A stretch of DNA of 64,000 bases from Xestospongia bergquistia (lineage: Eukaryota > Porifera > Demospongiae > Haplosclerida > Petrosiidae). How positions within the stretch are numbered: position 1 is the stretch's first letter; each line of letters opens with the position of its first letter. The notes beneath the pieces were generated by a model. It searched no databases. It saw only the letters and a list, made by a program, of their open reading frames with translations, and was not told the origin of the DNA. The translations under genes were made by a program, and so were the position numbers. The DNA lies in contig OZ014417.1 of the NCBI GenBank assembly GCA_963965975.1, positions 2,275,821 to 2,339,820 of the forward strand, given 5' to 3'. Shown here piece by piece: positions 32,484 to 64,000 of this stretch.

Positions 32484-35400
32484 CTATAATTGAAGTGCTT
32501 CTTTCATTTTAATTGCAGCATCTTTGTCTCCACATTTCTCTACTGCATCTACTAACTCCTTCCATTCTGGCTGACCAGTGTGTTCTTTTATCCAACAATA
32601 TAATGAGTCCTCTAATGCTGATTGTAAATCATATAGCTCATTGATTTTAGTTTCAATTTCATTTCTTTTCTCATATGGAACTCGTAAGCGGAGTGCTAAC
32701 AACTTCCAGAAAGATACTTTAAACCCATATTGATCAAGTAGATCAAAGGCAGTATCAACAGTGAGTGCTTTATCTATAAACAAGATAAGACTTCCAATTA
32801 AAACAAACAAACATATTTTGACCTAATTATAATTATCATTCACAGTCAATTAATTTGCTTTAGTAAGTCCAACATATTCTCACAATCCATTATTGATCTC
32901 CCATTCACCAAATTACTATTAAGTGTAATTATTATAAGCTGCACCCACATGGGACAAAATGGTGGACATAATAAGTTTATAAAATGTCTCTCTTGAAAAA
33001 AATGTTAACACATCTTTTGCATTTAAACATGTGCTGGGTTTTTTAAATTTTTATCTGGAAGTCTAGAAATGCTCAAACATATTTATTTATGAAATTATTA
33101 TTTCTTAGGTGTAACTAGTGACACTCCTTCCTTTAGTTAATTATATTAGTAAAGAGTTCTATTAAAAACCCAACTAGTTTCCTCTAAATCATGTATGATA
33201 ACATGAACAAGATAACACATATATGATATACACATCATTAAATATAGTAATACTTACTTATAAAATTGGACTTTTCTTCTTGGAGCTTTCTTTTCTTGGA
33301 ACTCTCCTCTTCTATAGTTATAATAGATGGAATACATTTATTCATTTCATACTTACCTAATTGTTCCAAACTTTCTTCTTCCAGTTTTCTTTTCTTGGAG
33401 CTATCTTTTTTAAAAGAATCATGAACTTCTTGACAGTCTACAATGTTTAAAAAATTAAAATTTAATGCACAAACATACCAACAATAATTAAATCATTAAT
33501 TATTACATGAATATACACATAGATTATACACTGAGGTAAAGGTTTCTACTGAATTTACCAAGCACCAAATGTGCAAGGTTTGATAACTTTAAACTTCAAG
33601 CTCAAGAAACTGAGACGTTTGGTAAACAAATAAATGCAAAGCTGAAGCAACTACATAAACAATCTCCTATGTTATTCTTAGTTTATCCTAACATGTCGAA
33701 CTAAATTTACTTGTTCATGTCTAATATTATTAATAGCCTTAGTTAGAGAGATAGTAATTTCTTAATTACTACCTCTCTAAGTAAGGATGTAAACAATTAT
33801 TATAATTGAAACTGGTATGCATTTGATAAACTATAAGCATGAAAGCTAAATTACATAAAATGACATGAATTACTTAACAAATACAATAACAATAGCAATT
33901 AATAACACTATTATGCCTAAAACAACAAAATAAAAACAATAGTTATTACATGTAATACCTTGACTGGATCTTATAGTGTCACATTTTTCAACAGCTCTTG
34001 TCAATTCTTCTAATGATGGCTGATTAGGATGGTGAGTTATCCAATAATCTAAGGTTTCTTCCAAAACCCAGTCATGGTTTTTGCTTTCCTTATATGATGC
34101 TGTTAATTTCCTTCTCTCTTTAAAAGGGACATCAAGAGCTCTAGCTAAAGTACACCACTCAGATGACTTGAATTTGTGTTCTTCAAGGAACAAGAAAGCT
34201 TCATTGACTTTAAGCTCTGCATTAAAAGGCAAATGATCTTCAAATTTATGTACACATAACTATTATAATTAACTGCAAACAGAATACACTAACACATGTT
34301 CATTTGTTATGCAAAAAAATTGGCTTTTGAAAGTCATAAAGTACTTTCAAGATTATAAACGTAGATGAGTATGTTCATCTCATTGGTTAGCCTTTCACTT
34401 AGACACATAGCAAAGGAAAGAATAGCTTGGCAACTACTGTTTATATGCAACTAGTCACTGGATGTTGGAATTAATGAGGAAGTTATGGGTCAGATTCTTA
34501 ACAACAATGTTATCATATTTATACTAAGATAATTATTAATGATTAATTAGTGCCTTTATAGTGAACATTGTCTACTAGAGCAGACAAGATGAAATGTGTC
34601 AGTTTATCTAATGTGTACTTGATTTGTCTCAATTCCCATAACAGCTCATACTGATTCAAAAGCTATGTACATTATCTTTGAACAGGCTTCATGAGACTTT
34701 CATTCTGTTATTGTCTATTTTGTTATGTGCTATGTAAATAGCATACAATGCTCAGTCATAACAATGGAATTTTGATGTAATAATTACTTGTTTCCCAGAT
34801 ATCTGGAAAATTAAGTATATCTGAAAAAAACAGTTACTAGGCATTCTTTATTCTTTCATTGGCTATAATAGTTAACAAACATGGAGAAGGGCAATGCATA
34901 TTAAATATTCAGAAATTTTCACAGACTCTCCTGGATTAAAATGCTTATCAAATCTGCTATACAGTTGTAAAGTCACAAAAGTACTTACCTGGAGTATTCT
35001 GTTGCTTAGCATCTTGGTGTTTCAATGACTTGTATATCTCCATAGCTACAGCTTTATTCTGAACTAGTGGTCCTTTAACAACATCTAGAATTACTTTCCA
35101 TGTGACAGGAGTACATTGACCGTCCATTTCAATCCATTTCTGAAGGACATGATCAAGTTTTTTTTGATCAGGTAAGCTGGATTCAGCTAAGCTTTGAAGG
35201 TCATTATAGCTTACTCCAAGATCAAAACCAATACCACGCCATGATGCATCAATACAAACTAGTTTTGTTAAAACCTCAAGTTTATCGGGCCTGTTATCTA
35301 GAAAAGGAGAAAGCAGTTGATTATGTAATGTTAATACTGCATACTTACATAATTGAGGAATATCACTCATATCTTCATTGATTAACTCTACTTCCTTTGC

Positions 35401-38400
35401 ACAAACTGTATCTTTATTCCCTGTAAATAAAATGGAAATGATAAGATTGTAAATATGTATTTTGAAAAAAATGTATAGCAAAAACTTGCAAGGATAATTA
35501 TTTAATTTAAAAGTACAATAATATATGGAAGGAAATATGGTAGAAAAACATTGGAGAACATAGACATAAAGTAGATTTTAATGAAATCAATGTGCTAAAC
35601 GACTACTTAACAACAACTATTATAACTTGAAATAGAAGATATCCTCAAAGACCATCTACATTGGGAAGGTTACTGCTTCTTTAAAAAAATTTTAAAACGT
35701 CATGATGCAATATGGAAAATATGTTCACTACTTGTTCTGCCTACTATACCACACCCAAATAAGAGAAAAATGTTTCATAAACTAATGAAACACAATTTCC
35801 AATTTTCCAATTTTTCTCTCTCTACATTTACCTGCTATATGTTAACTACATCCAATAACATGATTGTACATACTTGCATGACTTTTGACTTAATTTTTGC
35901 AATTATATAGTGCTAACATAGCTATAGAATATTATCTATCAAAGTAAGGAGTCATATAGTAGTAGACAAATTATCTAGACCATATACAACTATAAGCTAA
36001 ATATTTATACATATAGCTATATAGAAATTCCATAATATTAATTTCTCGTGAGTGACAAGATAACACCATATAAACAGTAAAGATCAATTGCACCAAATTT
36101 CGTACTATATACTCTTCCTTTTGTATTACAACAAATCCCATCAATAACAACAATCATGATGACACATACATGGGATCATTTAATATAGAAAAATTGTAAT
36201 CAATCATGACTTCAATGAGGTTAAAATGATCACATATGATACTAATATACACAAATATCAAAAGGTATAAGCTTACTTTGTCTTTTGACTTTTCTTTGCT
36301 CAATTCGTATATTCTTCAAGGACTCCTGTATAGTGATAGCTACATCTTCCTTCTGAACAACAGGACCTTTTACAACCTGAATGATCTTCTCCCATGTTAC
36401 AGGTGTAGGTTTAGTGTCAATCCACTTCTGCAGAACTTCTGTTAGTTTGTTTATAGATGCTTTTTCACAGTTTCTCAGGCCCTCAATGAAGTTTTCTTCA
36501 ACTCCAAGTTGTGTGCCAAGCAGCTCCCATTTAGAACTAATAGGTGCTAATAGTTCTACAAGATGACGTAGTTCTGGTCTTTTACCTGTAGTTACAATAA
36601 TAACATTAGTAAATAATTAGATCACATACTTGGATTGCTCTTCAAAGAAGAAATCCATGACATTTGTGGAGAGATTTTGACACAATCACCATCAGGCAAA
36701 TTACATTGAAGCTCAAAGCATTGCTGTTTTAAATTAGCAAGATGGTGAGGCTGCTTACCACAAGGACAATAAAAAGCAATATCTAATTTCATTTCTCTAC
36801 CAATGTTCCGCCTCTTCTTGGTCTCCTTGATAGCATTTTCAATGGCTTCCTTGACTTCAGCCTGATCTTCACGACATTCACAGTGGATCTCAAACCAATC
36901 TGAAGATTCTACCAAACAAACCCTTCCCAGCAAATCGTTGTTGCACAATATAATAGCATTGGAGTACATCTTGGGAGTAAACTTAGTGTCAAGTTCCCAC
37001 GAAAAGTCATTATAGAGTCCATTGTCATCATCATCAGTGATATAATCTTCACTTGAAAGGAGGTTGGCTATCATAGCACAAAAGAAGCCAATTGGTGCAC
37101 CATTTTTAAAGTAGAAAAGTAATGGAGTGATGCCAAAGCTTAAAAATGTAGCCGCCAAAGGATCAATTAAGGGCAACAAGGCAGGCATAAAATATTTGCC
37201 ATTGGGCAATTTTGCTGCTATCAGAAGATGTACAAAGACTTTCATTAAGTCACGCTTGAAAATTGGATATATGTTGGATATTTCAGTAAACTTCCGAAGC
37301 TTAACTTGAGATAAACCCTCACTAGAAATGACACCATACTTGGACATTTCTTGCAAAGTGAGTAGTCCTCCACTGACACTATCTCCACTGCGTACTTTAC
37401 AAAGTAGAACCATCAGCTCATTCACTACCTGGATGAGACTGTAAGGATCAATGAAAACAAGATCAGTCACTTCTGGATAGTAAAGAATAGAATTAATAAC
37501 ATGCAAATAGTTCAAAGCACTTTCAATTTCATCTTTCAAAATTAAATCTTTACCAAAAGACTTGCACTCTTCCAATGTGAGTATACCACAAGAATTACAA
37601 GCTTTATGACGAAGGAGAATTTCATAACCATACCAGAATAGTGGAATGTCAACTTCAAAAGCATTTGTACTTAATTTGTCACGGATCTCCTTAATAACAT
37701 CATCTTCAAAATCTCCTTTTGAAGCATTACGACCATCAACTTCATATGGAATTATATTAAGGCCAACATTGTGACAAAGCAAATTATCTGCTATCCCTTG
37801 AAAAATTTGATTTAATCGAGTGTATTTATCTTCAATGCTTTCAATATTTTTTCCTTCCTTTTTGAGCTGGTCATATTTATCTCGATGAGTAGCAATGGTC
37901 ATCACATGCACTTTTGATGGTGATTTATCTGCAGGCTTAGGAAGACTGTTGTTACCACTAGTAAATGCCAGTTGTTGTTTGTTTAAACTCACCATACTTA
38001 TGAGACGTCTTAGAAGAGTCTCAATTGATATTGAGTGCTCGCTCACTTTGTAATTCCTGCCACCTTCACAATGGAATTCACAAGAAGACTGGTCAGAAAG
38101 GTTATCTGCTAAACTGATAACTAACATAAGGATTGATGCATAAGGTATAAAAGCTTGTAAAATCTGCTGAAATTGGATTTGACCCCCAGAATCAATAAAG
38201 TAAAGCCACTCTTCACAGAGTGTTAATTTTTCATCCCTGTTAGATGCTTCATTAAGAATTTCTGACAACTCCTTTACTACAGCATCATCTTGATCGGTGT
38301 TTGCGCTTGGGCGACTAATATTATGGTCTGGCTCTTGTGATTTTGTGCTTCTATTGTTGAGACTGTCATTATGAAACTCCTTTACTGCACCATTGTCAAT

Positions 38401-41400
38401 TTTAGCAGTGTTTTCACCTGGGGTGCTAACATGTTGATCCAAATCTCCTCCATCAATATTATGACCTGGCTCTTGTAGTTCCGTGCTTCCAAAATTGAGG
38501 CTGCCATTTTGTGCTTCATTGGTGTTGTTGGCATCTTGAGACTTGCCATTTTCTTCTCCTTGATCATCTTTCATTTTAGACTTGATATAGTTGGCAAAAA
38601 GTGCAACTATTTTATCATTCTTGTCATCCCTGACTAGTTCCCACTTCTTTTCTTTATTTTTACCAAATTTCTGTGCTATTTGTGGACGCTCAATAACACC
38701 AGTACTGTCAGTATTTTCATCATAAGGCTGAGAGAGCACAAGACATTTCACGCAAGTCTTACCAACTCGAGCTGGACCTTGTACTAGAACCTTTGAAATT
38801 TTGGCTCTGACTACTCCACCCTTTTTGATGGCATTTTGAAGATGATGGTGATCTATGGAAGTAGATGTATACATATTGTATGAACTTCTGAAAAAAAGCC
38901 TTAGTATTGGCCTTGCCCAATGTTTTGTGAGAATAATGTTATATGTCTGTCAATTTCTACCATCATAACTCCATATATATGCAGTTTTAAATTGTTAACA
39001 AATAACAATTCATTGTAGCATAAAGTGTTGCTGTCTGGTAGTATATCTATTGGTTTAGTTATTGTGCATATACATTGAATGATAACTACTAACATTGCAA
39101 ATTACAAATTCAGTCATGGTATATTAGTATCCCAGAGTCAACAAGAAATAGAACTAAGATGAAAATATAGTTGGCAAATATTTCTTGTTTGAGTATATAT
39201 CCAAGCCATGAATAAAATTACCACATTAGAATCTGCCCATTTTTGAACACTAAAAGATATGTTAGCTAACCAAATCATTTCTTTGTCTAAGATTCATTTA
39301 ACTATATTGAACATTTTGTTATCCATTTTGTCTTGAAGCCATAATCACAATAACTTTAGGGGCCTACAATTTTTCTGCCTGCATGCTTACATATCTTATG
39401 CTAACATACATATTTGTATTCAAATTAGAGCAAATAATAATTAACTTGTAACAATCATATCTTTCTTTATTATGTATTCAACACAGCCAATTACCTAATT
39501 CAAATCTCTTAAAAGTCTTTGATCAATAGTTAGATGTAGCTATTGATAAATGTTCACTGATATTTCTAAAGATTCCTTTTTCATGATCATTCCAAGCCAT
39601 GTTAAACCCACCAATCAGAAAAAAGCAGAGGACAAGCTGTTGACATGAGCAATACACTACACTAGCATACATAGTTGTTACAGTTAAGATAAGCCTGATT
39701 TATTGTAAATATGAACAATAATTTGATTATATTTATAATAAACCACACCTAAAAATGGTATGATGACTTGTATCATTGAAGCCACACATGAGACATGTTA
39801 TAGGACAGAATTTGATTAGTCAAATGAAAACTTGCTTGGTAACACGAAAACACATTTGTATTTTAAATTTTAGTATTTTGAATTTTTCTCTCTTTGCCAA
39901 TTGTTTTCATGATTAATTTAGCTTAAACACCACAGAATTGTCTTCCAGAGCTAAGTTGCTTCTTTAGAAGGAAGAATTTCAATAGTTGGTGACAATATAT
40001 AAGACATAGAATGTTCTATGGTTATAATGATGACTCTATTTGTAATAACAGGAGGTCACATTCTGGCCTTAAACCAAATAATAAATAATGACAAAGATTA
40101 GTACCAATGTCCTAACATCAGCTAATCTTTCATATGGAGAAGAAATCAGTGCTGGGCATTGACCAGCATATCTAAGTTTGCTGTCTCAGTCATAAGCTAG
40201 TAATAGTAACAGATAAAAGACTGTATAATATTGCCTACTGTAATACCATTTGTTTTTGACTGTACTTTCTATGCAGTTTTGTATATTTCCTATAAAACAT
40301 GGATATTACACCAACAACAGTGCAGATATCTCTATATGTACATATAGATAGTACATCATAGTCAGTGCCTTTCATGTATGGCTTCATCATGATACCAATA
40401 AGAAAGAAAGCTAGGCAATCCATCTCATGTGAGCATTTTTCTATAAACATTTTTTTTACAAATTAAACAATTTACTGACAGTAACCAGCTATCAACACTT
40501 GTGATAATGAGGAGTTATACTAGCAGGTAAAGTTGACAGTACAAGACCATTATTATCTCAAGTTTTACTGTAGCTGGATTTGAATCCATGCATTAAACAA
40601 AACCATTAAAATTTGGAAGCCACAAATAATAAAATTATCATAATTGGCTAGCTAATGGTAAATTTATAATAACTAACCTATTTTCTCATATAAGGTAGTG
40701 TCTTCTAGATCATCTGCAAGTAAAAGTTCATATCATAATTAAAATCCAATGCTAGCAAATTAATATTCAAACATACAGCATTATGTTTTCAGGAGGTGGC
40801 AAGTTAAATATTATTAATATTACACATACCAACAGTATTAAAACAGTTTCATGTTGGGTTGTAAAACATGTGTCAATAAGTATTCAAGCTGCTATCATTG
40901 CAAGCTTCTTGCTAAACTGATTTCAAATTTATTTATAGCTGAAGCATGTTGACAATCACAGTGTAACAAATCTAACGAACTTCCTCAATTGTAAAAGCAA
41001 TGCCTAATACAAATGCAAAATCATTCTGCTGTTGTCAAGATGGTTGTCTCCACACTAAATTACAATTTCAACATAAAAACATCTATTGAAATTGCTAACT
41101 AAGATTTTCACTGCAATCTTTAACTGCCAACACACAAACTACAATTGAGTTTGTTAGCTCCTATGTTGTCAGTGCTAATATAATGGTTATGCCTCAGTGC
41201 ACAGAAAATGCTGAAGCAACTTAGTACATTGTATATGCAATGCATGTAGTAGCTTCAATGTTTCCCTGGACTATGCATTGTTTATGTCAAATGATAATGC
41301 ATCTTTTTAGTCTTTGATTTGTTAATAACAAGAGGCCTCTCGATGGCAGAAATCAATGTCTCAGGTAACAGCAACAAAAATATTCATCCACCTGCCACCT

Positions 41401-42242
41401 TTGCAAAAGTATAGTGGAAACTTAGTAAAAATTGCTTGACAAGCTATATCAGCTCTATTACACATGGTTCTTAGGTTTATAAGCATTGTATCAGCCTGAT
41501 TGGGACTTTTCAAGCCAAACTATAAAGGCAATATACTACTGTAGATTTATAGAGATGGTTGGAGGTTAGCATGACAATATACAACATGATACATTGGTCT
41601 ACAGCATAATATCAATACTGCCAACTGAACATTTTGTAAAAATGTCTTTCTTGTTATTAGCAGGGTTGACAAGAACAATGTTATATATCATGTTATGTTA
41701 TACATTTATAAATTAGCCATTCTTTGTTGTTTTATTATTAGGATAAGAGAACAGCTTTATATTATGCTTCTCTTTATCGTAACACTTAATCAGTTTGTTC
41801 TATGTGCCAGTATGTGGTTGTAACATGCTATAAGTCAAGTTAAGCAGTATAGTGGGACTATATATATATAAGCTGAATTTAATACAACTAACAACTACAC
41901 AACTCTATAATAATAACTCATCCCATATTGTGGTTCCCTAATATTGTTGGCATAAAATAATCTGTTTCAGTTTAATAGCATCCTAGTTTTTCAATCTTAA
42001 TGAGGTATATTGTCTTTGCATGTTGCTTGGAATAATAAAAATAACAAGAAGAAAGAACATCATGTCATACCTACATAGGTAGTGCTACCACCTGCCTGAT
42101 ACTTCTCTTATAAATATGGTGGTTATTTTCAATACATTTATGCTGATAGAATGTTCTAATTATTTTAACAATATCTTACCAGTAGTAGTCAATAGCTCCA
42201 ACAGATCATCATCACTAATGTCACTACTTCCCTTTGTCATAG
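32484..42242 (-). CDS. Divergent Roc-like GTPase-COR protein with multiple death domains (gene 2)
   Basis: Exons chain in phase on the - strand: 42,180-42,242 (MTKGSSDISDDD), 40,678-40,713, 36,630-38,852, 36,277-36,585, 35,349-35,420, 34,989-35,297, 33,959-34,216, then alternative ends. The 741-codon exon has a P-loop GPARVGKT (38,755-38,778), a G3-like DSGGQ (about 38,179-38,193), a G4-like ATHRD, then a COR-like region (LIQVVNELMVLL, YFMPALLPL) and a Cys-rich end (HCEC, CPCGK). Three death domains follow: KWELLGTQLGV...WEKIIQVV (36,277-36,585), SWRGIGFDLGV...WKVILDVV (34,989-35,297) and a more divergent one (33,959-34,216). The C-terminus is either a tail anchor (stop at 33,870) or exons 33,357-33,437, 33,258-33,311 and 32,484-32,773 carrying KKRKL basic motifs and a fourth death-like domain. 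It may be fused to the upstream gene. Confidence 0.7.
33870..33958 (-). other. Alternative terminal segment encoding a membrane tail anchor
   Basis: Reading straight on from the third death domain exon, the frame continues through YCFYFVVLGIIVLLIAIVIV to FVK and a TAA at 33,870-33,872, giving a single hydrophobic helix at the very C-terminus. A 42-base GT...AG segment (33,917-33,958) could also be removed without changing the frame, shortening the hydrophobic run. The paralogue at 59,991-60,110 likewise ends in one hydrophobic helix followed by basic residues, which supports this as a real C-terminus. Confidence 0.55.
38853..40677 (-). other. Long intron of gene 2
   Basis: The AG acceptor at 38,853-38,854 and the GT donor at 40,676-40,677 bound about 1.8 kb without supported coding sequence. 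I see no RNA gene, repeat array or other exon in it. Confidence 0.5.
40714..42179 (-). other. Long intron between the MTKGSS exon and the DDLEDTT exon
   Basis: This 1.47 kb AT-rich interval lies between two small exons that join in phase (ACT ACT ACT G and AT GAT CTA). It contains no convincing coding block. If gene 2 has its own promoter it might lie here or just upstream of 42,242. Confidence 0.45.
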
Positions 42243-42451
42243 CTGCAAAAACAATAGCATAGAATAACTACGATAATTACTAGCTCACAAAGGTAATAGT
42301 AAGTAAATATTACTAATAAGCAATTTCTCTTATTAACTACTACACAAATTTATGTTTTCTTATGTGAAAGACCATTGCAATTTTTAAGTGAGTTCTTAAA
42401 TACAACAACAGTACAATTACCTTATTTTACTCAGACTATATGAGCACTCAC

Positions 42452-45400
42452 ATTTTAAAAACATTTCCATCTCCATCACAGTAATTTTACTTTCAATGGG
42501 TGGACTTTCTATTACTTGTAAAATTGTGTTCCAAGTGACAGGTGTAGGCATTGTATCCATCCAATGTTGAAGTACTTCAACAAGTTTTTCAATGTCACTT
42601 GAAATCTTGTTTTGTAAAGAGGCCAGGTAGTTGTATTCAATTCCAAGTACTTCACCAATAATATACCATCTAAAAGCAATACTTGACATTAGTTGTATAA
42701 GGTCACTTTTATTAGGAGGTTTTGCTAATAAATCAAAAAGAGCAAAGTCATCAGACACAAAATGTATATGTACACACATAATTATGTAAGAAAGCTATCA
42801 TTGCCTACACAATATGCATGCATATTTATCAAACCTTTTAGACTCGAAATATTTTTAGACTGAAGGCAATCTTTTGAGACTTTTATGATTTCATCAAATG
42901 TTAAAGGATGACTTGAGAGAATCTTAAATTCAATAAAATATATATCTTGAAATAATGCACACAGGATAATAATAATGTATTAATTCAATAATTGATTGTG
43001 CTCACATATAAAGATGTATAGGCTCATATATCATATAATTATGAAGACATGTACTATAACTTACCAAAGGATTTCGTCCAGTAAAAATGCTATAATTATT
43101 AAGATGACTGGCAACATCAGAATAGGTGCTACCTTTGTATGTATTATAAAATGACATTATACTGGGAGCAAATTCTTGTATGTGTTGAAGGAATCTCTCT
43201 GGAATAACTTCATTGGCTTTGCTATTAGAAAATAAGGCATGGACAACTGCTGGTGCAAGGGAAATGTATGGCTCATATCGACAAATGTGTTTGACATTGA
43301 TCGGACTGTCATAAACTCTATTATGGTCAAATGTTTCCGTGTTAACTAGCATTGCTCGAGCTACATCATTTACACTGTAGAGTATTCGCTCAGAAATGGC
43401 CTTACTACGAATGTCAGCTAAAGATCCAGAAGGGATGACGTACTCATCAATTTTACATGGGCAAAACTGCTTTTGAAGAGAAAGAACGAGTTTTATAACA
43501 GAACAACATATTTTTTGACTTTCAACTCCTGTGTCATTAGAAACAAATACAGTAACACATCTATTATTATCTGTCACTTCCACTGCTACATCATTGCTAT
43601 GTTTCCAATAAATACCATTCTTCCAGACTGTACAACGACGATTCGACTGCTGCATAGGAGACCTTGGGTCTAATGTAATAGCTTCATGGTGATGAGGAAG
43701 GCAAAATAGATACACTAATCGAAGCAAAAGAACATGAAGGAAGCGAACAGAGAGAAATTGAAATGGATTAGGGCAATACAAGCACCAACCAAATCCATGT
43801 TGGAAATGATAATTTAAATCTAAAGGAGGCTTAGCAGTGAGGAGAGCTGGAAAGAAAAGTAAGTCAACATTAGAAAAATGATCTGATGAAGACAGGTTGG
43901 TACTAATAGCATTCAGTGTGTCTGAATCGATAATATGACAAAATTCCATGCTTATTAAAAAATCAATAAGCATACTTGTGTCATATGTTGGAAACAGCTC
44001 TTGTAAAACAGAAATGTGGACAATGCCAGTGTTGCTAGAGATTGGTATAGGAAGACGCTTGATGTTCTTATTAAAAAGAACACCATTAACTTCAGCAAGA
44101 AAACGTGATTTGTTAACTACAATCCAGTTGTTAGACACTATTTTATTTCTCAGAAACAGAACAAGACCTTTGTCACTGAGAATTGACAAGTAGTTAACCA
44201 AAACTGTTTCATCTGAAGGGAGGGATGGATCGTTAAGATCTTTTAAACTTTCAATAAGCTCATTAAGGCTAATAGCTACTTTCTGTAGCTTTTGGAGGTA
44301 GGCATAATACACGTGGCAATAATAACTAATGTTATCAGACTTATTAAGAACAGCCTTACAACTTTCACGAAGGTGAACAATGAATTCCGGGAAACCTTTT
44401 CCACCTGGACGATGACATTCCATGGCAATAAAGCCTCTATATTCTTGTTTACGAATGGCATCTTTAACAACATAATTGACATGTGACTTGAATTCATCAT
44501 AACTACCGGTAAATTGATCAGCAAAACTTCCAACGACAATCACTTGAGATGGTTTGGTTAAATTGGAGCATACATTTTCAATAAAGTTAAACCAGTAATA
44601 CAACCAGTTCTTGAAGTAGTCAAAACCTTTGGTGGAATCTATCACTATTGTAAAAACTGCAGGAGTTCTCAACATAAGATTCTCCAGTACAGCTGCATGG
44701 CTACTGTAATATTCTTGATGACCAGCAAAATCATAAAGAGTAATATTGCCAACTTCATGACTACAAATATTATGATAATTAATACCAGCGGTTTCCAATT
44801 GCACACCCTCAACCGATTGAAAAGTGTTGTAGTGATAATCTGCAGGTTTATCAGCACGATATATAATGCACTGGGCTAATGAACTCTTTCCAGCTGATAT
44901 GCTTCCACAAAAAAATACTTTTCTATATGAATCAATTGAATAGTCTTGACGACTTTTCTCAAATGGCTCAAACATCCTCAATATTTCAAGTTTATTTGGA
45001 TCGTACAGTTGGACTTCTTCCAGTGGTGTATTCTGATTATTATTATGAGCAAGTGGATTGACTTTTCCAGTGTGAAGGAGATATGAAATTATGTCTACCT
45101 TACTGTTTGCACAAGCAAGATGTAAGAGAGAGTTCCCTCTCTGTGAAAAATTAGAAAATATTTATATTTTTATTAATACAATCTAGATAATAGATAATAC
45201 ATGTATGATAGGTATATAATGTTATATAATCTCCTAACAAAGCAAATATGACATTTTACCTAAAAATAGTTATCAAAAAGGTTAATTCCCCTTAAAATAT
45301 TGATATTACAAAAGCAATAGTGTTACATCGGATGTTCATTGCTATGCAAAGCATATAAAAAATCACTTTAATTAATTTTTATGAGGACATGGTCAATTGC

Positions 45401-48400
45401 CACGTGGAAATTGGTGACTAGATTCTTCAAAGCAATTCCAGTTTTTTGGTGGGACGACAGCAATTTATTGCAGTGATGTGTCAAAATGTACTTACTAAAG
45501 GGTCAGCTCTGCAAAATACCTATAGCAATACCAATAGATGGTTGCTAGTATATGTCAAGGTACATGAAATATCTTAGGCATATACTGTTGATAGTGCTAA
45601 AGCTATAATAGAAGCTTTTATCAATTATTCCTTGTATCACTTATGTGTCACCAGATTTTTCAAGATGTTCAGGAGCAGGTACTCATGGCTATTACTGATG
45701 ATAGAAGTATTGATGGTGTAAAAGTACATAAAAAATTTTAGACAAGCAAAGTTAGGCAATGTAGCTATGTTGTGGGCAAAAAATAAACAGAAAAAATTAG
45801 GATGATGAAGCCAAATAAAAAGTTTATCATCAAAATAATGTCCATGATATTAAAAGGACAAGACTGAATAAGGAATTTGGAATAAATTTTTTTTCTCATT
45901 TACTATTTTACTGTCAACAGTATCATGTTCCAATAGTACACTTTTTGTCAATTAATTTGGGCTTTAGTTCTTTTCCAACTGTGATAGATAGGATCATTGT
46001 TCTTTGAAAGTTTTGATCAAAAGCATGTTATCAAAATTTAAAAGATTCGAAATAGTGGGTATTCTGGGTATCAATTTTGAATACCTCATTAAAATGTCAT
46101 GCTTGAACAACTGTAATGTGACTAACTTTGTCCCTAGCATTCACATCAACTTGTCCAACTTCAATTAATAACTTTAGAATATCAACATGACCTGCCTCTG
46201 CTGCAACATGTGCAGGTGCTTGTTCAATCTAGAAAACAAAAGTGAAAAAGTTAATCAATTACAAAATCACAGGAACTATCAAACAATAAACTATATAGTA
46301 AACAGTCTCCAATACTCATAGCCATTGTATTACCATGCTAAATTGAATGTACCACATATACAACACACTCAATACAAACTAAAACAGTAGCTAAGATGTC
46401 CTTATATAGATGCAGACAGCAAAAGTCTACCTTTGTAGTTTATAATCAACATATTATATGAAACTACTAATATGAAAAATTGTAAAGGAAATGTTCATAA
46501 ATGGATTACATTTGTAACACATGCAAATATGCCGTACTTCAAAAAAACTATTATAATACCAAGAGCTCATGAACTCATGATTACACAAGATGTATATGTG
46601 TTGCTAATCCTACATACCGGTACTTCAATGCTCAAATACTATCAAAGAATTGATTCACTGAATTTGTAGTTTATTCCAAGGATACAAATGTTTGAATTAA
46701 GTAAATGTTGCAAAATGAATTGCTAAGTCTTCTTTTTTGACATATAAACAAAATTAAAAATAATGTGCCATAAAAAAACTCAATTGGAACTACAATGAAG
46801 AAGTGATTTTTCTAATTCATAACTGACTACAAAACAACTTTTAATAAAATACTGGCATTATTATATTATTATCTAATATAGGTGCTTCATAAAAATAACA
46901 ACAAAGCCAAAATCTGCTTAGTTTTAAAAAAATATAATTAATTTAAAAGTTAGAACATGCTTGAACTGAGGAGGGATCTTTTTATGTGATTAGACCAAAT
47001 TACTAAATAAGGATGGATTTTTTTAACGTTAACAAGAATGTAATAAGTCATCCTAAGATTACATTGATAGTGCTTCTGTTGCTGCAAAGGACTAGATTAT
47101 TGCTAACTTAGGGTTTAGGGTTTGAGATGGAAATTAATAGCAGCACAAAAATATAGTATAATGCAGGCAATACCATTCCAACAATCATCAGAACATTTTT
47201 AAACAAATGCACGACCTTTGTCAACGATACCAAGATGATTTCAAGGATATGTACTATTAGAACAAGCCACATCTACTGATAGCTACCACCAACTATGTTT
47301 GTTAAGCTTTACTAAGAAAATATTTAAACCACAAGTTGACAAAAACCTTATTAGCCACACCAATAACATTCTATATCTATTAAATAAGTTACATGTAGTA
47401 CTCTCTACACACAATATACACTGACCATGTCACAAATATTGGGATCTGCATTGGAGCATAGCAGTAGCTGTACAATATCGAAGTGACCTCCTTCTGAGGC
47501 TAGATATAGAGCTGTTTGCTGATGCTATAGGAAGTACACAAGTATTTATTGTTGACTATAATAGCATAAAAATTTACAGATTATAATATATACCTTTAAT
47601 AAAATCAATCATGTATTAAAGTTAAAAAAATCGTAAAAAAATTATTAATATAATTTTAGTTGTGTTGGTATTGTAATTGTTAAAATTGTAACATTTGAGG
47701 TAGTTATAATAAAATGATAGAAAAATCTTGTTATTAAGGGTTGAACAAACTACAATTATAACTTCTCAAACTTGAATTGCTTAACATTTGGCATTTGAGT
47801 AGTTGTGCTCAGGCTAAAGTGCTGGCGAAAAAAATTAATTAAATTCATTGATTGATAAGTGCATTGTGGTCATTGCATCCAGTTAAATCTTATTCGTTAA
47901 TTTCAATACTCAAATATAATTATCTCTAAATAAAGCACTAAAATGTACATTTATGTTGTATGTAAACACAGTTCAAAACAACCTTATAACTGTCTAACAT
48001 GTAAAGTGTACTAGTGAAACAAACAATGACTACAAATACCATAAATATATTAAAGTTTAGCACTAAGAAAGAATTAGGACTACAGTATTATTAGTATAAT
48101 AATTGTAATACATGGTCTGATAAAAGGGATGAGTAATACTTTGATATTTGGATCATAATGACATGTACTACTAATAATGACACCATTTTAATCACACTTC
48201 TTGGTAACATCTACGTACTTCAAGACTTACACCTCTAGTGTATGGTGTGCTCCTGTTTTAAAATTAAGTGGGAGTGGTTCACTACTGGCTGTGCTCTCTA
48301 CACTGAAGTATTTAGGGTTTAAGTTTTTAAAAGGGTATAGTAACAGCATAAAAGTATAGCATAACGATGAGATACCACTCTCATAATCATCAGAATGTTT

Positions 48401-51400
48401 TGAAGAATGTTTTGACACAGCAACATACTAATACCAAAAGCTCATGAACTCATGATTATATTATAAAATGTATATGTGTTGTTAATCCTACATACTTCAA
48501 TGCTCAAGTATTATCAAAGAATTGACAAACTATATTTGTAGTTTATTCCAAGGGCACAAATGACTAAATTAAGTAAATGTTGCAAAATGAGTTGCTAAGT
48601 CTTCTTTTTTGACATATAAACAAAATTTTAAAAAATGTGCCATAAAAACACTCAACTGGAACCACAATGAAGTAGTAATTTTTCTAATTCATAACTGACT
48701 ACAAAACAACTTTTAATAAAATACCGACGTTATTATATTATTATCTAATATAGGTAATAATATAATAGTAATTTTTCTAATTCATAACTGACTACAAAAC
48801 AACTTTTAATAAAATACCGACGTTATTATATTATTATCTAATATAGGTGCTTCATAAAAATAACAACAAAGCCAAAATCTGCTTAGTTTTAAAAAAATAT
48901 AATTAATTTAAAAGTAGAACATGCTTGAACTGAGGAGGGATCTTTTTATGTGATTAGACCAAATTACTAAATAAGGATGGATTTTTTTAACGTTAACAAG
49001 AATGTAATAAGTCATCCTAAGATTACATTGATAGTGCTTCTGTTGCTGTAAAGGACTAGATTATTGCTAACTTAGGGTTTAGGGTTTGAGATGGAAATTA
49101 ATAACAGTACAAAAATATAGTATAATGCAGGCAATACCATTCCAACAATCATCAGAACATTTTTAAACAAATGCACGACCTTTGTCAACGATACCAAGAT
49201 GATTTCAAGGATATGTACTATTAGAACAAGCCACATCTACTGATAGCTACCACCAACTATGTTTGTTAAGCTTTACTAAGAAAATATTTAAACAACAAGT
49301 TGACAAAAACCTTAATAGCCACACCCATAACATTCTATATATATTAAATAAGTTACATGTAGTACTCTCTACACAATATACACTGACCATGTCACAAATA
49401 TTGGGATCTGCATTGGAGCATAGCAGTAGCTGTACAATATCGAAGTGACCTCCTTCTGAGGCTAGATATAGAGCTGTTTGCTGATGCTATAGGAAGTACA
49501 CAAGTATTTATTGTTGACTATAATAGCATAAAAATTTACAGATTATAATATATACCTTTAATAAAATCATGTATTAAAGTTTAAGTCTTGTTATTAAGGG
49601 TTGAACAAACTACAATTATAAGTTCTCAAACTTGAATTGCTTAACATTTGGTATTTGAGTAGTTGTGCTCAGGCTAAGTGCATTGTGCTCAAGTATTATC
49701 AAAGAATTGACAAACTATATTTGTAGTTTATTCCAAGGATACAAAATTAATAATTGAATTAAATAAATGTTGCAAAATGAGTTACTAAGTCTTTTACACC
49801 AACCCAGGCAGTTGGCAACTACAATACCCTACTATTTTATTGTGATAACAGCTAGTTCTATATTTTAAGAATTTGTAAGGTATGCCATTGAAATTGTATG
49901 AAGAGTTGTAGTTTGATACTTTTTCTACTTGTAAAGAAGCTTACTTTTTGCAAAATACCTGCTTTGCAATGTGAAAGTCTCTTGTCATTATCTTATACAA
50001 AGACAAAGTTATTTTTATTGATTAGGATCCTAAGTCAGTGCAAACATATTATAAAGAGGTAATACTACAAATATATACATGTAATAGATCTAGAGACAGC
50101 AAGTGAAATAAAAAACTATACACAATTTACACTGACCCTGTTACAAATATTAGGATCTGCATTTAATAATAAGAGAAGTTGGACTGTCTCTTTGTGGCCA
50201 TTACCTGAGGCTAAATGCAAAGCTGTATTCCGATTCTAATAATAAAACAGAAAAGAATGTGAATGAAAAAATGACTATTACAACTTTTAAATTACTACAG
50301 TAAGATAATATCACTAAGTCAAGTAATAAGTTACAGTATAGCAAAGATAATCATAGCAATGTTTGGCATCATAGTATAAAGTTAGTAATAGTTTTAAAAT
50401 GTACGTGTACACAATAAAGTAGTGACTTTGTTGATGACAGGCTTGGTATAATTTTGAAAGGCCAAATAAAAATTTACTGATGGAGCTGAAAGATGATGAA
50501 AACAATTAAAACAGTAACTTTATGATCATAATGATAACAAATTAGGATAGCCTGTAGTTCTGATTAACTGCCAATAATTTATTGAAGGCTTCTTATATTT
50601 TAACTGACATAATAAGATGTTAACTCATTGTTTTTTTACTATATTTTTTGTGTTTGTGGTTTGTTCAAGAACATAACATACAAGTACAACTATACATTGC
50701 ACAATGGATTCTTATACTACACTGTGATTTTGAGTATCATACTCTGGTTTTCAATTGTTGGTATTTACACACAAACTATTTAATGTCTTAGCATTTTTAT
50801 CTTCATATGATTCCTATATTATGATGTCATGATATATACAGCATAGCTCCTTTGGTTTTGAGTCTTTTATGACAATCAAAAAATTTACTTTCAAAGCACT
50901 AAGTTTAGTATATCTGACTTCTCATGATAATATTATAATTACTGTTTTATATATGAATTTATAATTGTGACATTAGTGAGCTATCCTTTTTATTATAAAG
51001 GTATCATTTATCATAATAAGGTATAGCTTACAAATAAGGTTTGCCCATTGATATTAGTATTCTTCTTTACAGCTTCTTTCACTATTTCTACTTGTCCTGT
51101 TACAGCAGCTGCTAACAGAATCTCATCCTAAGAAATCACAATAAGTAAATGCAAATAATGTACATTATAATAAATACTGCAGTTAATAGTAGGAACATAG
51201 ATGTGTACAAATGCCACATGGCCCAGATTTCTTGGGCCTGCATGAAACTCCATATTAATTATGTATGAAGCATATGGGCATGTGCAGTGTTGCATAACTA
51301 TATCCTACCTATGAAATCACAATTTCAATATCTCAAGTAATTTCAAGACTTTAACACTATCATTCACAAATAGATAGATAAAGATCTCCTATATAACATA

Positions 51401-53716
51401 AGATTTGCGGTGCTACCTTATGGTTAAGATGGGTGGTTAGTCAAAGACAATTTAGTGATTGTTCAAATATACAATCAGTCTAGTTCAATCTTTTGCCCAA
51501 AACGTCTTACAAACCAATTAACACAAAAACTAAAGATTAACTATAAAGCCTGGTAAATATGAAATACTAAAATCAAATTGCTTAGTCATTTTTTACTAAC
51601 AGTTTGACTGGGAGTTAATCAATTCACAAGGTGTATGAGTTTTTATTATTTGTAAAATAAACATTACATGTTCAAAAAAGCAATTAATTACATGCCTAAA
51701 CTTGGCAGATATATACAAAGATTTTCCAGTACAAATCCTGTGTCCTGCAGCTTTAATTGCCTAGTTCTAATGTATTTAACAATATGTGTTGCCTTTATTA
51801 AAGTAATTGTGATAAGTACAACGAATCTCTTAATTTATCAGCTTTTAAATATATGTCATTTATAGCAACTGCTCTAGTATTCATAAACTTAAAAGAAGGC
51901 TATTTCTTCCATGTCACACAGATGGCTCTGCATTATTCTGAACATAGAAGGCTAGAGTTTCTCCATCAAAATGAATACTGTGTCTGTTATATAAACAACT
52001 CCTAATATTGATATGGCTCAACTTAACCTTCTAACTAGGTATAAGATAAGGTAGCAAAGTATGCTTATTGTTCATTCTAATATAACATCAACGCTAGTAC
52101 CATTCTGTCATAATTTATTATAATTCTGACACTTGTGATCAAATAAATCTGGATATGACTGCTGTGTAAAGTAATAGTTTAGTCAATCCTTCAACAATTC
52201 TTTTCTAATGTTATATGAAGTCAATTGTAAACCTGTTGTACCTTAGTGTTATATGATACGCTTTAAAATTATGCTTAATGATAATTACTAGCTATATAAA
52301 CCAATATTAAAAGAAAGGTAGTGTGTAGAAAAGCAACATACATACACAACAATTATATCAGTAAAGGTCACAATAATTATCCATTAAATATATTGCTATG
52401 TGTCTTGAGTTATTCTAAATATTGACCTTAACTACATACATGTATACACTTACATAATTAGGAGAAACACCTTCACTTTCCAATAACTCTACTATTGTGT
52501 AATGACCATTGATGTAAGCTACAGTATGAGGTGTTGTTTCTGTTACATGAAAACCTTTGTCACAAACAATCTATATAATAAACAATGAAATTTCAATATA
52601 TGAAAAAAGTCAAATTACCTATCTATTTATACACAATATAAGCTGTTACTTTACATTGTATGCATCATTAATGAAAACATAATACAATGGATTCCATCCA
52701 ATTAAATATTATATGTAAAGATCATGTATATTATTAATTGTGGATACTAATTTAGTAACTTTAAAAAATAGAAAAATAATTACTAAATTATTTAAGGGTT
52801 GAGTTTTTAATTTAAATTTAGGTGTGGCTAAAAGGAACTAATGCTCATTAAATCTACCAAGTTTTGATATAAGTTTGTTGACACAAATAATAACAGTAAG
52901 TTAAAGGTAAATTAATAGGATCTTACATCAAATCGACAATTGATGTTTACTCCTCGCTGAAGAGCTTGTTTTGTTTGCTCTAAATTTCCATTTTTAGCAG
53001 ACAACCAAAGTGCCCTGTCCTATATAATATGAAAACAAGTTATCTCTACCAGACCACCACAACTACATGTATTATATTAAAATAATAAAACTATAGGATA
53101 GGTCAAATACACAAAACACAAAGTGAAAATATTTATTAAACAAACGGGACATAATTAGGTTTATGTATATAACTAACATGGACAATTTGACTATACTACA
53201 ATTACAAGACTACACTAACTAGTAGCAAACAGTTCAGTGATCTTCATTTCAATTTTTTATTGTTATTGTTTATTTTACATGTGATATGATCACATGATAG
53301 CAATAATTGGACACTATTTAAGTATTAAAGTGAGTATACTAGGAACACATAGAGACAGGTCTATAGAATGATAGTAAATGCAACCATTGTCTATATAACT
53401 ATGCAATACTGTTCATATAAACTAATACATACCTAAACCTAAATGTGCACACATTCTGCTTACAGCAGGCATACATATCAACTAGTAATTAATAAACATG
53501 TAATTATTGAATATTAATAGCGTGAATAATTATTTATAACCAGATAAAACTCAACTAAGATCACAGCTTGTAAGAAAATATCACTTGATGAGCAATTTGA
53601 GTTATGAAGAAACTGCGTGTACATACTTAACATACATACTTAACATACTTTAATTTAATGCTATAACTCATTATTAATAAAATTACCTGCTCTCTCAATG
53701 AAAATTGACCTGCCAT
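42452..53716 (-). CDS. Ankyrin-Roc-COR-death domain protein (ROCO family, DAPK-like without kinase), gene 1
   Basis: Exons from the 5' end: 53,687-53,716 (MAGQFSLREQ), 52,927-53,019, 52,454-52,570, 51,032-51,127, 50,137-50,235, 49,388-49,486, 47,426-47,524, 46,127-46,228, 43,065-45,140, 42,835-42,922, 42,452-42,724; about 1,024 codons. The first small exons are phase 0 and each encodes about one ankyrin repeat (TALHLASGNGHKETVQLLL type). The large exon finishes with another ankyrin repeat, then a Roc GTPase with P-loop GSISAGKSS (44,880-44,906), G3 DFAGHQEYY (about 44,706-44,732) and GSFADQ at the G4 position, then a long COR region. The last exon is a death domain (WYIIGEVLGIEYNYLASL...VTWNTILQVI). 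The order matches DAPK1 without its kinase. Roc-COR modules act as dimerising GTPase switches, and death domains recruit partners by homotypic contact. The death-domain exon can end at GTGAGT (42,446-42,451) and splice on in phase, or read through to a stop at 42,417. Confidence 0.8.
46565..47820. repeat. Tandem duplication unit 1 containing an ankyrin exon
   Basis: This roughly 1.25 kb intron-exon-intron block recurs at 48,440-49,680 with few differences. It carries the ankyrin exon 47,426-47,524 encoding HQQTALYLASEGGHFDIV and flanking introns. The interval between the units (47,821-48,439) is unique intron sequence with no gene seen. Confidence 0.8.
48440..49680. repeat. Tandem duplication unit 2 containing an ankyrin exon
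   Basis: Second copy of the 46,565-47,820 block. The 99-base exon (49,388-49,486) encodes the same 33 residues as its partner. A further duplicated piece of the unit start appears at 49,684-49,795 (from GCTCAAGTATTATCAAAGAA), indicating more than one unequal exchange. Confidence 0.8.
48674..48847. repeat. Direct repeat of about 80 bases, period about 94
   Basis: A block starting AGTAATTTTTCTAATTCATAA is present twice in a row, at about 48,674-48,754 and 48,767-48,847, inside duplication unit 2. Unit 1 has it once (about 46,803-46,880), so this is a later local duplication. Confidence 0.75.
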
Positions 53717-59553: not shown

Positions 59554-60646
59554 ACTCCATAAAATTAAGTAATGGCAATTAAATTGCAATTCTTTTGCCA
59601 TCATCCTTTAAAATGTAACAACTATATGATTACATAAGACGTTTTCTTTACAATTTTTCATCAGTTTAAGTAACTGCTGAATACATTATTTTGAATGTTG
59701 AAAGCAATATCTATAATTTTCAAACTGATGTTGCAAACGTTAAGTACTCCTCATTAGACAATGAAATCAGTGACTGTACATATATATGGCCACAACACAA
59801 AGCTGGATAGTGCTCTATAATTATTAATTACCATGTGCACATTTCCTGTTATGTTATAATCTATTTATTTAATTGAAATGTTGATAAAAATTTTGTTAAT
59901 TACATATGACTAAAATTCTAAAAATATCAATATGACAATATTATTTTTTCAAAAAATAACCACTATATACATGAGTATAGAATGTATTATTTATTTGTGT
60001 TTACGCAGACATGAACGACCAACTTTTTTACTGAAATATGAACGACCAACCATAACAGCAATTAACACTACTGATATACATGTAGCAGCAATGATAAGAT
60101 TCTTTTGATTTATAAGATGAAAAGACTTTGTAACAATAAATACAAATTTACTATAATGATTATATACCATATTATGTAGTTATAATTCTTTACCAAAGGT
60201 CACGTGCACTGAAAAAGTCTTAAGGTACCATTTTAATGAGCAATTACCTTGGTCATCATCACCGCTTTCTCCTTTTAGTTCTCTCTGCATTTTAGTAGCA
60301 ACATTCTTTTCTCCACACTCCTCAACTGCTTTTGTCAACTCATCTAATGTTGGCTGACCAGAATGGCACATTATCCAGCAGCTTAACATTTCTTCTAAAA
60401 CCCAATCATGATTGTTGCTTATTTCATATGATGACAACAGCTTCTTTCTATCATCAAGAGGAACATGTAAAAGTGGAGCAAGGGATTCCCATTTAGATGA
60501 CTTGAATCCACACTTATAAAGGAACAAGAAGGCTTTGTTAGCATTGAGTTCTGTGTGAAAAGATAGATCTCATCAATAGTACATGTAATGGTGTATATGT
60601 TTGACCACTCTTCTTTATTTATACTAATGCAAATCTGTCAACTTAC

Positions 60647-60810
60647 CATCACTTCTTCAGTAGTATTGTTGCTACCCACATTAGCACTTTGCTCTGCTAG
60701 AGTAATGCTCTCCAGTACATTAGCACTTTGATCTACTAGAGTAATGCTCCCTAGCACAATAGCACTTTGCTCCACTTGGGTAATGTTTCCCACACTAGCA
60801 CTTTTGTCTT
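60647..60810 (-). repeat. Linker exon with 13-residue (39-base) repeats
   Basis: The exon encodes about four units of the form QSANVLESITLAE, in the order DKSASVGNITQVE, QSAIVLGSITLVD, QSANVLESITLAE and a final degenerate unit. It lies between death domains 2 and 3 of the paralogue and has no counterpart that I can see in gene 2. Confidence 0.7.
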
Positions 60811-61942
60811 CTATATTAATATACACAACAATATTTACAATATAATGCATGGTTATAAATTTTGCTTTTATTTAACAAAATAAATCTGAATTCTATTTTA
60901 TAAGGATTCAATCAATAAACTGTTACATTGCCTGTGTATAGACAGTGTTTGGTCCGCACATAAATCTGTTACTGATGTATTCAGCAGTAACTTAGTTTGA
61001 ACTTGGCAACAACAATGACTGCTGTCAAAACTTGACAACAGAACTAGAACATGACTGTTAATGTTATATCCATGATGGTAAGCTGCTGATATGCATTACT
61101 AGTGTGCTGTTATAATGCATCCATGCATCACTGTTGTATACAATACAGAATGACATACTGAGAAGTAGTAAACTTTATATGTTTATTTAAATAATATATT
61201 GATTGACACTTAGCAGTCATGTAGTAAATTGTTGACACTATAATGATTTTGTTTAATCCCTCATTAGTTAGACCATAATTTTCATGGATGCTTGGTTTGT
61301 ATGTGAGGACTTGTCACCATGGAATTTACCAGACACATGTCATTTAAAGAAAGTCACTTTATGGTTGAAGTGTGTGAACTATCAATTCCATAGTAATTAG
61401 TAATAAGACAATATATATTACTTTCAATATATATGCTGTAGGCATGTATGCAACCTAAGTGACTGTGAATTGGTGAAACAACCAATCTGTTTTAACTGTG
61501 ATGTAGCTATTTCATTTTATAATTAATAAGGTTTTCAGCAAGTTCTTAGTGGGAGTATGGCAAACTAATGTTACAGCAATTCAGCTATTACTAATGACAG
61601 TGATGGTTTAATAGTATAGTCATCGTTACGCTAAATAACAAGGATTTAAATAATTACAGAAAGTATATGATAAGGTAGTCCTGTATATTATGTTACATTA
61701 CAGAAAGCTAGCCTATATAAACATTTGAAATAAAAATTATTAAGGATGCCTAATGTTAACCTTTAGTTAAGTGATTGATAGTAAGGCTCATAATACACAT
61801 ACCAATGTGGAACATATGTGCTACCTTCTTTGGTTAATTTGAAACATTAATAAGTTGACCTAATGCATAAGATAACATATAGGACTACCTTACCACATGA
61901 CATGTCAGATATGTCAGTAATATTATGTATTAACTAACTTAC
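60811..61942 (-). other. Intron of the gene 2 paralogue
   Basis: About 1.1 kb of AT-rich sequence between two in-phase linker exons. I see no coding block, RNA gene or repeat array in it. Confidence 0.45.
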
Positions 61943-64000
61943 CAACAATACTTGTTCCATCAGACTTGCCAGCATATGTTCCTTTTTCAATGCCTATGAT
62001 AAGATAAACAAACATAACTTAAAATATATAAAAGTTGTTATGACTTACCAGTGTTCTCAGAAATGTTAGGTTCATTTCTAGCAAGACCTTTTTCCTAAGG
62101 ACATTCAGAGCCTGTACTTTCTCTTACATTTTGCTCTGGTTTAACATCTACAAGAATATCATACCTTCAGATAGTTAAGAGCATATATTTTAAACTTACT
62201 TGTACCAATCAGTTGCTTATCACTTTCTTGTTTTAGTGCCTGGTATATCTTCATAGCCAAGGCATTATTCTGAACTAGTGGTCCCTTAACAACATCTAGA
62301 ATTGCTTGCCAAGTGACTGGAGTAGCTTGACCATCCATTTCTATCCACTTCTGAAGGACACAATCAAGTTTTGTTTGATTAGACTTGTTAGACTCAGCCA
62401 AACCATCAAGGTCATTATTACTTACACCAAGATCTAAGCCAATACCACGCCATGATGCATCAATTTCAACTAGCCATTCTAGAACATCAATTTTTCTTGG
62501 CTTTTCAGCTATAATTAAAATCAATATAGAATATTTTCCCTTTAAAATACTAATAACTTACATAGTTTAGCAAAACTGCTCATTTCATTTGTATGGCTCT
62601 TTGTAGCTACTACTTGCTCATGATGACCTGTACGATTATCTGAGATTGAAATAAAATAACATGATGAAATGTATATATGTGAATTATTGAAAGACATTAT
62701 TTACAACTGTTAAAATGTTATCTGTACATTTATCATTTGAAAACAATAGCAAAAATGTAAATGTGATAAGTATATGATTATACTAACATATCTGTAAGGT
62801 TATTTCATGAACTGTACACTCACTTTGTCTTTTAGCTCTTCTGTATTCAATTCGAATTTTCTTCAAATGTTTTTGAATAGTGATAGCTACATTTTGATTT
62901 TGAACAACAGGGCCTCCAACAACCTTTATGATGTTGTCCCAAGTAACAGGAGTGGGTTTCATTTCTATCCACTTCTGGAGAATTTCTGTTAATCTAGTTT
63001 CGTCGGATTTGTTCAAACGTTTCAAACCATCAATAAATTAGATTCTACCCCAAGTTGGTCACCAAGTAAGTCCCATCTAGAACTGACAGGAGCTAACAAC
63101 TGCACAAGATGTCGCAGTTCAGGTCTTTTACCTATAGTTGTAATGACAATATGTAAGTACTATTTCAATAATATAAATATACATATACCTGGATTGCTCT
63201 TTAAAGAAGTAATCCACGACATACGTGGAGTGCCTTCTGTGTCTTCAACATAACAATCATGACAACCATCAGGCAAATTACAGTGAAGCTTGTGATATTG
63301 CTGCTTTAAAATAGCGAGATGGCGACGCTGTTTACCACATGGACAAAAGAAAGCAATATCTAATTTCATTCCTTTACCAATGTTCCGTCTCTTTTTGGTC
63401 TCCTTGATAGCATTTTCAATGGCTTCCTTGACTTCAGACTGATCTTCACGACATTCACAGTGGATCTCAAACCAATCTGAAGATTCCACCAAACCAACTC
63501 TTCCCAGCAAATCGTAGTTGCGCAATATAATAGCATTGGAGTACATTTTGGGAGTAGACTTAGTGTCAAGTTCCCACGAAAAGTCATTATAGAGTCTATC
63601 GTCATCATCATCAGTGATATAATCTTCACTTGAGAGGAGGTTGACTATCATAGCACAAAAGAGGCCAACTGGTGCACCATTTTTAAAGTAGAACAGCAAA
63701 GGACTGTTAGCAGGTGACTCAAATGGAATTGCTTTCAATGGATTGGTTAATGGCAACAAAGCAGGCATAAAGTATTTATCATTAAGTGGTTTGTTACCAG
63801 GCAATTTTTTGGCAATCAAAAGATGTGTAAAAATATTAAATAAATGAGACTTAAAATCACTGTATTTGCTGGACACTGTTGCAAACATTTTAAGATGATC
63901 TTCATGTGAAAATACATCACTAGATATGATGCCAAATTTTGCTACATCTCGCAATGCTAGTGTACCTCGACCAACATTAATGCCATTACGAGCTTTACAG

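Follow-up and report, generated by a model that had tools for sequence, protein, structure and literature searches.

A possible double Roco-type protein in a sponge: a predicted gene joining two unlike G modules and five death domains

Roco GTPases, including LRRK2 and DAPK1, are thought to act as dimers, and DAPK1 carries ankyrin repeats, Roc, COR and a death domain in that order. In the sections of PMC6337361 available here, each Roco GTPase, LRRK2 and DAPK1 among them, is given one Roc-COR, the Roco groups are drawn with a single Roc-COR per chain, and a group with a death domain is described. In brown algae, the ROCO genes form large families with shuffled exons, LRR exons being those shuffled, and have been proposed as immune receptors (PMC11378527, sections available). 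A limited search of open-licence papers, including the available sections of PMC6337361 and PMC11378527, returned no description of a double Roc-COR protein.

The window considered here is a stretch of 64,000 nucleotides from the sponge Xestospongia bergquistia (contig OZ014417.1, positions 2,275,821 to 2,339,820), in which an ankyrin-Roc-COR-death gene (gene 1) is followed on the minus strand by a second G-domain and death-domain module (gene 2; Table 1). Gene 1 has ankyrin repeats, Roc, a COR-like region and a putative death domain in the order of DAPK1, and differs from it in being followed by another G module with four additional death domains and in that no kinase is found among the gene 1 exons read (53019 downstream). 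It resembles the Roco/LRRK2 proteins in its Roc domain, which passes the Pfam cut-off (PF08477, 28.3-28.6 bits, cut-off 27), is matched in 8/8 members of the gene-1 alignment A2 (best E 8e-08) and retrieves an LRRK2 Roc structure in a profile search (E 0.0045); the difference is that two Roc-type modules of different subfamilies would here lie in one predicted chain. The COR-B profile gives 12.3 bits in gene 1 against a cut-off of 27, with two of the eight A2 members at E<=10. With the brown-algal ROCO genes, as presented in the available sections of PMC11378527, the sponge genes share large families and shuffled exons, but there the LRR exons vary, whereas here it is the heads before a Roc-like death-domain module that do so. 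The gene in the window, if fused, would be a variant of the Roco/DAPK1 type.

Table 1. Exons and other features of the gene 1-gene 2 region, in window coordinates
Feature	Position	Strand	Remarks
Ankyrin exon 1, gene 1	52927..53019	-	phase 0-0; GT-AG borders; gene 1 start codon not located
Ankyrin exon 2, gene 1	52454..52570	-	exon chain
Ankyrin exon 3, gene 1	51032..51127	-	exon chain
Ankyrin exon 4, gene 1	50137..50235	-	exon chain
Ankyrin exon 5, gene 1	49388..49486	-	exon chain
Ankyrin exon 5, second copy	47426..47524	-	identical encoded peptide; sits in duplicated stretch
Ankyrin exon 6, gene 1	46127..46228	-	exon chain
Large exon, gene 1	43065..45140	-	last ankyrin repeat, Roc, sub-threshold COR-B-like region
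Exon X, gene 1, ILSSHPLTFDEIIKVSKDCLQSKNISSLK	42835..42922	-	phase 0 to 1; tblastn match in 14/15 loci searched
Death-domain exon (DD1), gene 1	42452..42724	-	phase 1-1; sub-threshold Pfam Death score (16.0 bits, cut-off 22.6)
63-base internal exon, gene 1	42180..42242	-	phase 1-1; kept in 15/15 loci read
Dispersed-repeat-like stretch	41718..42103	-	matches elsewhere in genome; just downstream of break 42162
Conserved block	41401..41517	-	three genome copies found, all flanked by a gene-1-like copy on one side and a gene-2 copy on the other
36-base exon, D-DLEDTTLYEKI	40678..40713	-	phase 1-1; precedes P-loop exon in gene-2 family
Second dispersed-repeat-like stretch, in intron	39699..40401	-	repeat matches
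Large exon, gene 2	36630..38852	-	P-loop GPARVGKT, DSGGQ, THRD, COR-like region
Death-domain exon DD2	36277..36585	-	Pfam Death 23.1 bits, cut-off 22.6
Death-domain exon DD3	34989..35420	-	19.3 bits, below cut-off 22.6
Death-domain exon DD4	33959..34216	-	22.1 bits, below cut-off 22.6
Linker exon 1	33357..33437	-	exon chain
Linker exon 2	33258..33311	-	exon chain
Last exon, DD5 + stop	32484..32773	-	Pfam Death 26.9 bits

The exons from 53019 to 32484 form a single open frame of 2,295 codons plus stop with GT-AG borders, the start codon of gene 1 not having been located, and this length agrees with the expectation of an earlier, sequence-only reading that a spliced product reaching the last death domain would exceed 2,100 residues. 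To link the Roc exon with the one for the death domain, the frame requires exon X, which that reading had not named, and all junctions from DD1 onward are in phase 1. An ankyrin exon is doubled at 49486-47426 (minus strand), with an identical peptide, inside a repeat of about 2 kb.

The sequence-only reading had proposed that the death-domain exon of gene 1 is spliced across a short gap and that the frame continues to the second P-loop. A GTGAGT donor indeed stands at 42451-42446, directly after the phase-1 exon end AAAAT; the intron (42451-42243) is 209 bases long, with the acceptor tattgtttttgcag, and the exon at 42242-42180 starts with CT, which completes TCT, reads S-MTKGSSDISDDDLLELLTTT and is followed by the donor GTAAGATA. 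The GTGAGT donor, the AG acceptor, the 63-base length, phase 1 and a GTAAR donor were found in 15/15 loci read (the window, its C7 duplicate, 12 loci on C6 and one on C10, taken from 26 match rows by a script that sought these patterns beside the aligned position). Because this pattern is kept throughout, the death-domain exon is taken to be spliced to the 63-base exon, which is internal to gene 1. The alternative then offered, that the ATG just after the acceptor starts gene 2, is ruled out, that ATG being present in only 4/15 loci. The frame does reach the second P-loop, by way of a further exon (40713-40678) that had gone unnamed and of the acceptor at 38852. That the 209-base gap holds no AATAAA is true yet uninformative, since four occur in 42451-38853 (the first at 41736) against 4.8 expected, and its absence was dropped as evidence for one gene.

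The second G domain diverges well beyond what the name Roc implies, the large exon of gene 2 matching no Pfam family at E<=0.01, and the Roc-COR name depends on motifs and sub-threshold profile matches. The motifs GPARVGKT, DxGGQ and THxD are invariant in 9/9 rows of the gene-2 alignment A1, and we take them to fit a Roc-type G domain. The Roc profile gives 15.2 bits for the window member against a cut-off of 27 (6/9 members at E<=10, best E 0.0016), and COR-A gives 12.5 bits against 35.3 (3/9 members at E<=10). An AlphaFold model of the exon from nine sequences was unusable (pLDDT 32) and no fold search was built on it; a PDB profile search with gene 2 gave nothing notable (best E 0.31), and when the profiles of gene 1 and gene 2 were compared, nothing but the P-loop aligned (probability 0.6%). 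Two of the four death exons of gene 2, DD2 and DD5, lie above the Pfam Death cut-off. After DD4, at 33930-33870 (minus strand), a hydrophobic GIIVLLIAIVIVFVK with a stop was seen by eye as an alternative end, which could yield a membrane-anchored form without DD5.

Gene 1 in the window no longer continues as its relatives do. DNA homology with the gene-1 relatives on C6 and C10 ends at 42170-42161 (about 42162), some 18 and at most 19 bases past the 63-base exon, and four relatives followed beyond the break keep matching one another. Among the matches listed, 12/19 C6/C10 relatives have a C-terminal domain of about 97 residues, placed 1.7-7.8 kb downstream of their Roc exon; it was found in neither C7 copy and gave no match in the window. 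Among the same matches, 7/19 of the relatives are likewise without it within 8 kb, so its lack is not peculiar to the window. Together with the repeats at 42103-41718, the homology stop and the missing domain indicate that gene 1 of the window was severed from its relatives' 3' sequence. The domain has at least 135 matches genome-wide and no Pfam match; it was seen 3' of both gene-1 copies (C6) and gene-2 copies (C6:8.43/8.45 Mb).

The exons on either side, their frame and their conservation are observed directly; the join from 42180 to 40713 we infer. A phase-1 acceptor common to its relatives opens the large exon of gene 2, which hence needs an upstream coding exon; this also rules out a start of gene 2 at that acceptor. 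Ahead of the large exon, an exon that ends in K-I/L-G and has a phase-1 acceptor occurs in 5/10 locus groups (the window, C7:1.50 Mb, C3, C7:2.36 Mb and C4), compared with a simulated mean of 0.075 and maximum of 2 (n=200 simulations), for a pattern framed post hoc with the cases already known. The second C7 copy misses this pattern, though its exon reads open by eye, and the C6 cluster has a different exon, phase 0-to-1, ending FTEI-G. In the C7:2.36 Mb relative, the exon reads D-QQEDFVKAAEAQKI, and its last nine exon bases and first eight intron bases are identical to those of the window; taken alone, this 17-base match (score 17, shuffle maximum 18) is within shuffles and not significant. 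The donor at 40678 tops the 179 GT sites in the gap, scoring 9.2 when excluded from the training set, with the runner-up at 8.5, and the gene-1/gene-2 arrangement is retained in the second copy (C7:2422814-2431711). Also in its favour are the homology break just past a gene 1 that stays open and the varied heads upstream of gene-2 modules elsewhere. Against the join stand the conserved block discussed below, with the ATG at codon -7 in the loci that bear it, and three C7 gene-2 copies for which no head was seen by eye. The acceptor at 38852 scores low (1.3), and the stronger site at 38887 (5.6) is out of frame for the join, leading to a stop at the 12th codon; moreover, the truncated gene 1 may end by read-through, with GKILLK and a stop. 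That the join is in frame proves little, because the junctions from DD1 on are all phase 1 and any two genes of these families would be expected to join in frame. Altogether, a fused transcript, with two G modules in one gene, is somewhat the better reading, its share including forms with an internal start.

An alternative that we find possible, though doubtful, is that there are two genes, gene 2 having its own promoter or 5' end near the conserved block at 41517-41401, with an ATG at 41465 or at 38874 (after acceptor 38887), and gene 1 ending within 42180-41520 in a short new 3' end. The block is possibly a 5' element of gene 2 and would allow gene 2 a 5' end of its own; it was found in three places of the genome and solely between gene-1-like and gene-2 copies. 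One copy lies at C7:2371134-2371249 (78% alike), and there, at C7:2.37 Mb, the gene-1-like neighbour, read by eye, terminates at a stop codon some 9 kb short of gene 2, so that the block may represent the 5' portion of gene 2. The neighbours C7:2361348 and C7:2374389 had been considered as another fusion and were rejected, the upstream gene having its own terminal exon and stop (by eye). Of 19 rows, just the three from block-bearing loci carry an in-frame ATG at codon -7, which the remaining 16 lack; in three more rows ATGs stand at -9, -9 and -14/-15, and the row for C7:2.50 Mb is mis-anchored. From the ATG at 41465 to 41399 there are 67 bases, which gives phase 1. However, the donor of the block scores 0.1, compared with 1.5-11.4 for the chain exons, a gap of two bases breaks the block frame in the third locus, the 36-base exon holds no in-frame ATG, and two of three headless gene-2 copies are broken, with frameshifts in DD2 and near the P-loop.

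Both forms might be made, the gene-1 promoter driving a long fused transcript and an internal promoter at the block driving a short one for gene 2, with a common 3' end. This would unite the conserved exon chain with the conserved block, but the block donor is weak and the transcripts are deduced from genome sequence; we hold it to be unlikely, and its share is counted inside the fused reading. Between the window and the second C7 copy, gene 1 has a dN/dS of 0.58 and no stop, while 129 random changes would give 5.5 stops on average, with zero stops in 0.25% of 2,000 simulations; gene 1 thus looks alive. Gene 2 has a dN/dS of 0.35, and the large exons of either C7 pair are without stops; divergence peaks between the two C7 pairs were too few for use. 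A decaying tandem array, in which gene 1 would be a 3'-truncated remnant without product, would fit the homology break at 42162 and the frameshifts in neighbouring gene-2 copies, but is quite improbable given these open large exons and dN/dS values. Within the DD1 exon (42724-42452, minus strand), the two C7 gene-1 copies differ by 20.5 replacement and 1.5 silent changes, a small count that is a possible sign of positive selection.

Gene-2 modules are found elsewhere in the genome behind other heads. The family comprises 91 match rows, often two rows per gene, and heads are here same-strand neighbours whose phases match in part, their common transcripts being presumed. At C7:1.50 Mb (C7:1501000-1510316), actinin-type CH exons (58.6 bits) lie upstream of a gene-2 module, the last with a phase-1 donor, and could represent an actin-binding head on a Roc-like death-domain protein. 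In the tandem gene-2 cluster at C6:1.5-1.7 Mb, with its loci at C6:1.54-1.65 Mb, Ras-like GTPase frames lie upstream in 4/4 loci scanned (eight fetched), with Ras at 59.5 bits, over the cut-off, in one peptide and a Rho-like peptide at 19.4, below 21.6. At C3:268300-278524, LRR_6 (36.1 bits) and a second gene-2-like module (E 2e-30, 24.6-25.9% identity, phase-1 donor and acceptor) stand directly before the gene-2 exon, making this locus a candidate for a second double-G protein; it shares with the window a G module placed upstream of gene 2, and differs in its head, which is LRR plus gene-2-like rather than ankyrin-Roc-COR-death. A similar pair of gene-2 matches lies at C3:241549-245936. At C4:3.40 Mb, DD1-like exons (E 2e-13 and 2e-9, no Pfam Death match) are found upstream. 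Further upstream of these death-like exons and the gene-2 module, at C4:3402000-3405050, a peptide contains LSGDVELNPGP, which resembles a 2A-type sequence and could belong to a retroelement. No head was seen by eye among frames of >=55 codons for the gene-2 copies at C7:2.36, 2.34 and 2.50 Mb, the latter two of which are frameshifted, and the head at C6:8.44 Mb gave no family match in the one frame scanned.

The window itself holds a further gene-2 copy, entering at 60180-64000 (minus strand), whose DD2 exon is frameshifted near 63030. Positions 1-32000 hold units of about 14 kb in tandem, in which 300-base stretches are 96-100% alike, and a DUF4419 gene (289 bits) lies at 7300-6224 (minus strand), with a similar frame at 21706-20630 (minus strand).

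From these comparisons we propose, tentatively and at a little under even confidence, that gene 2 is one of a large family of C-terminal Roc-like/death-domain modules that are joined to heads of various kinds through symmetric phase-1 exons (ankyrin-Roc-COR-death, actinin-type CH, Ras/Rho-like GTPases, LRR with a second Roc-like module, death-domain pairs). Such joins would give multi-GTPase death-domain proteins, likely a lineage-specific repertoire of immune or cell-death receptors, and the window gene would be a recent fusion of two Roco lineages.

Under the fused reading, gene 1 would serve as the N-terminal head of a gene-2 module. A rearrangement some 18 bases past the donor of the 63-base exon (42162) would have severed a gene-1 copy from its relatives' 3' sequence and left it in front of a gene-2 module of the kind whose relatives stand behind varied heads. 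The transcript would read through, splicing 42180 to 40713 to 38852, with an additional internal start, giving gene 2 alone, also possible. The product would run from ankyrin repeats through Roc, a COR-like region and a death domain to a second, very divergent Roc-like G domain with its COR-like region and four death domains. As to function, the two G modules may be nucleotide switches working in cis and perhaps bind each other within the chain, in the way that Roco proteins pair via COR; the five death domains, once exposed, might nucleate a death-fold signalling assembly; and the ankyrin repeats would be the sensing part.

If the fusion is real, its two unlike G modules would form a natural pair within one chain. 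The larger point, which came from the relatives and not from the window, is the gene-2 module behind many heads: if true, a family that swaps heads ahead of its G-module/death-domain tail would offer a new case of receptor diversification in an animal.
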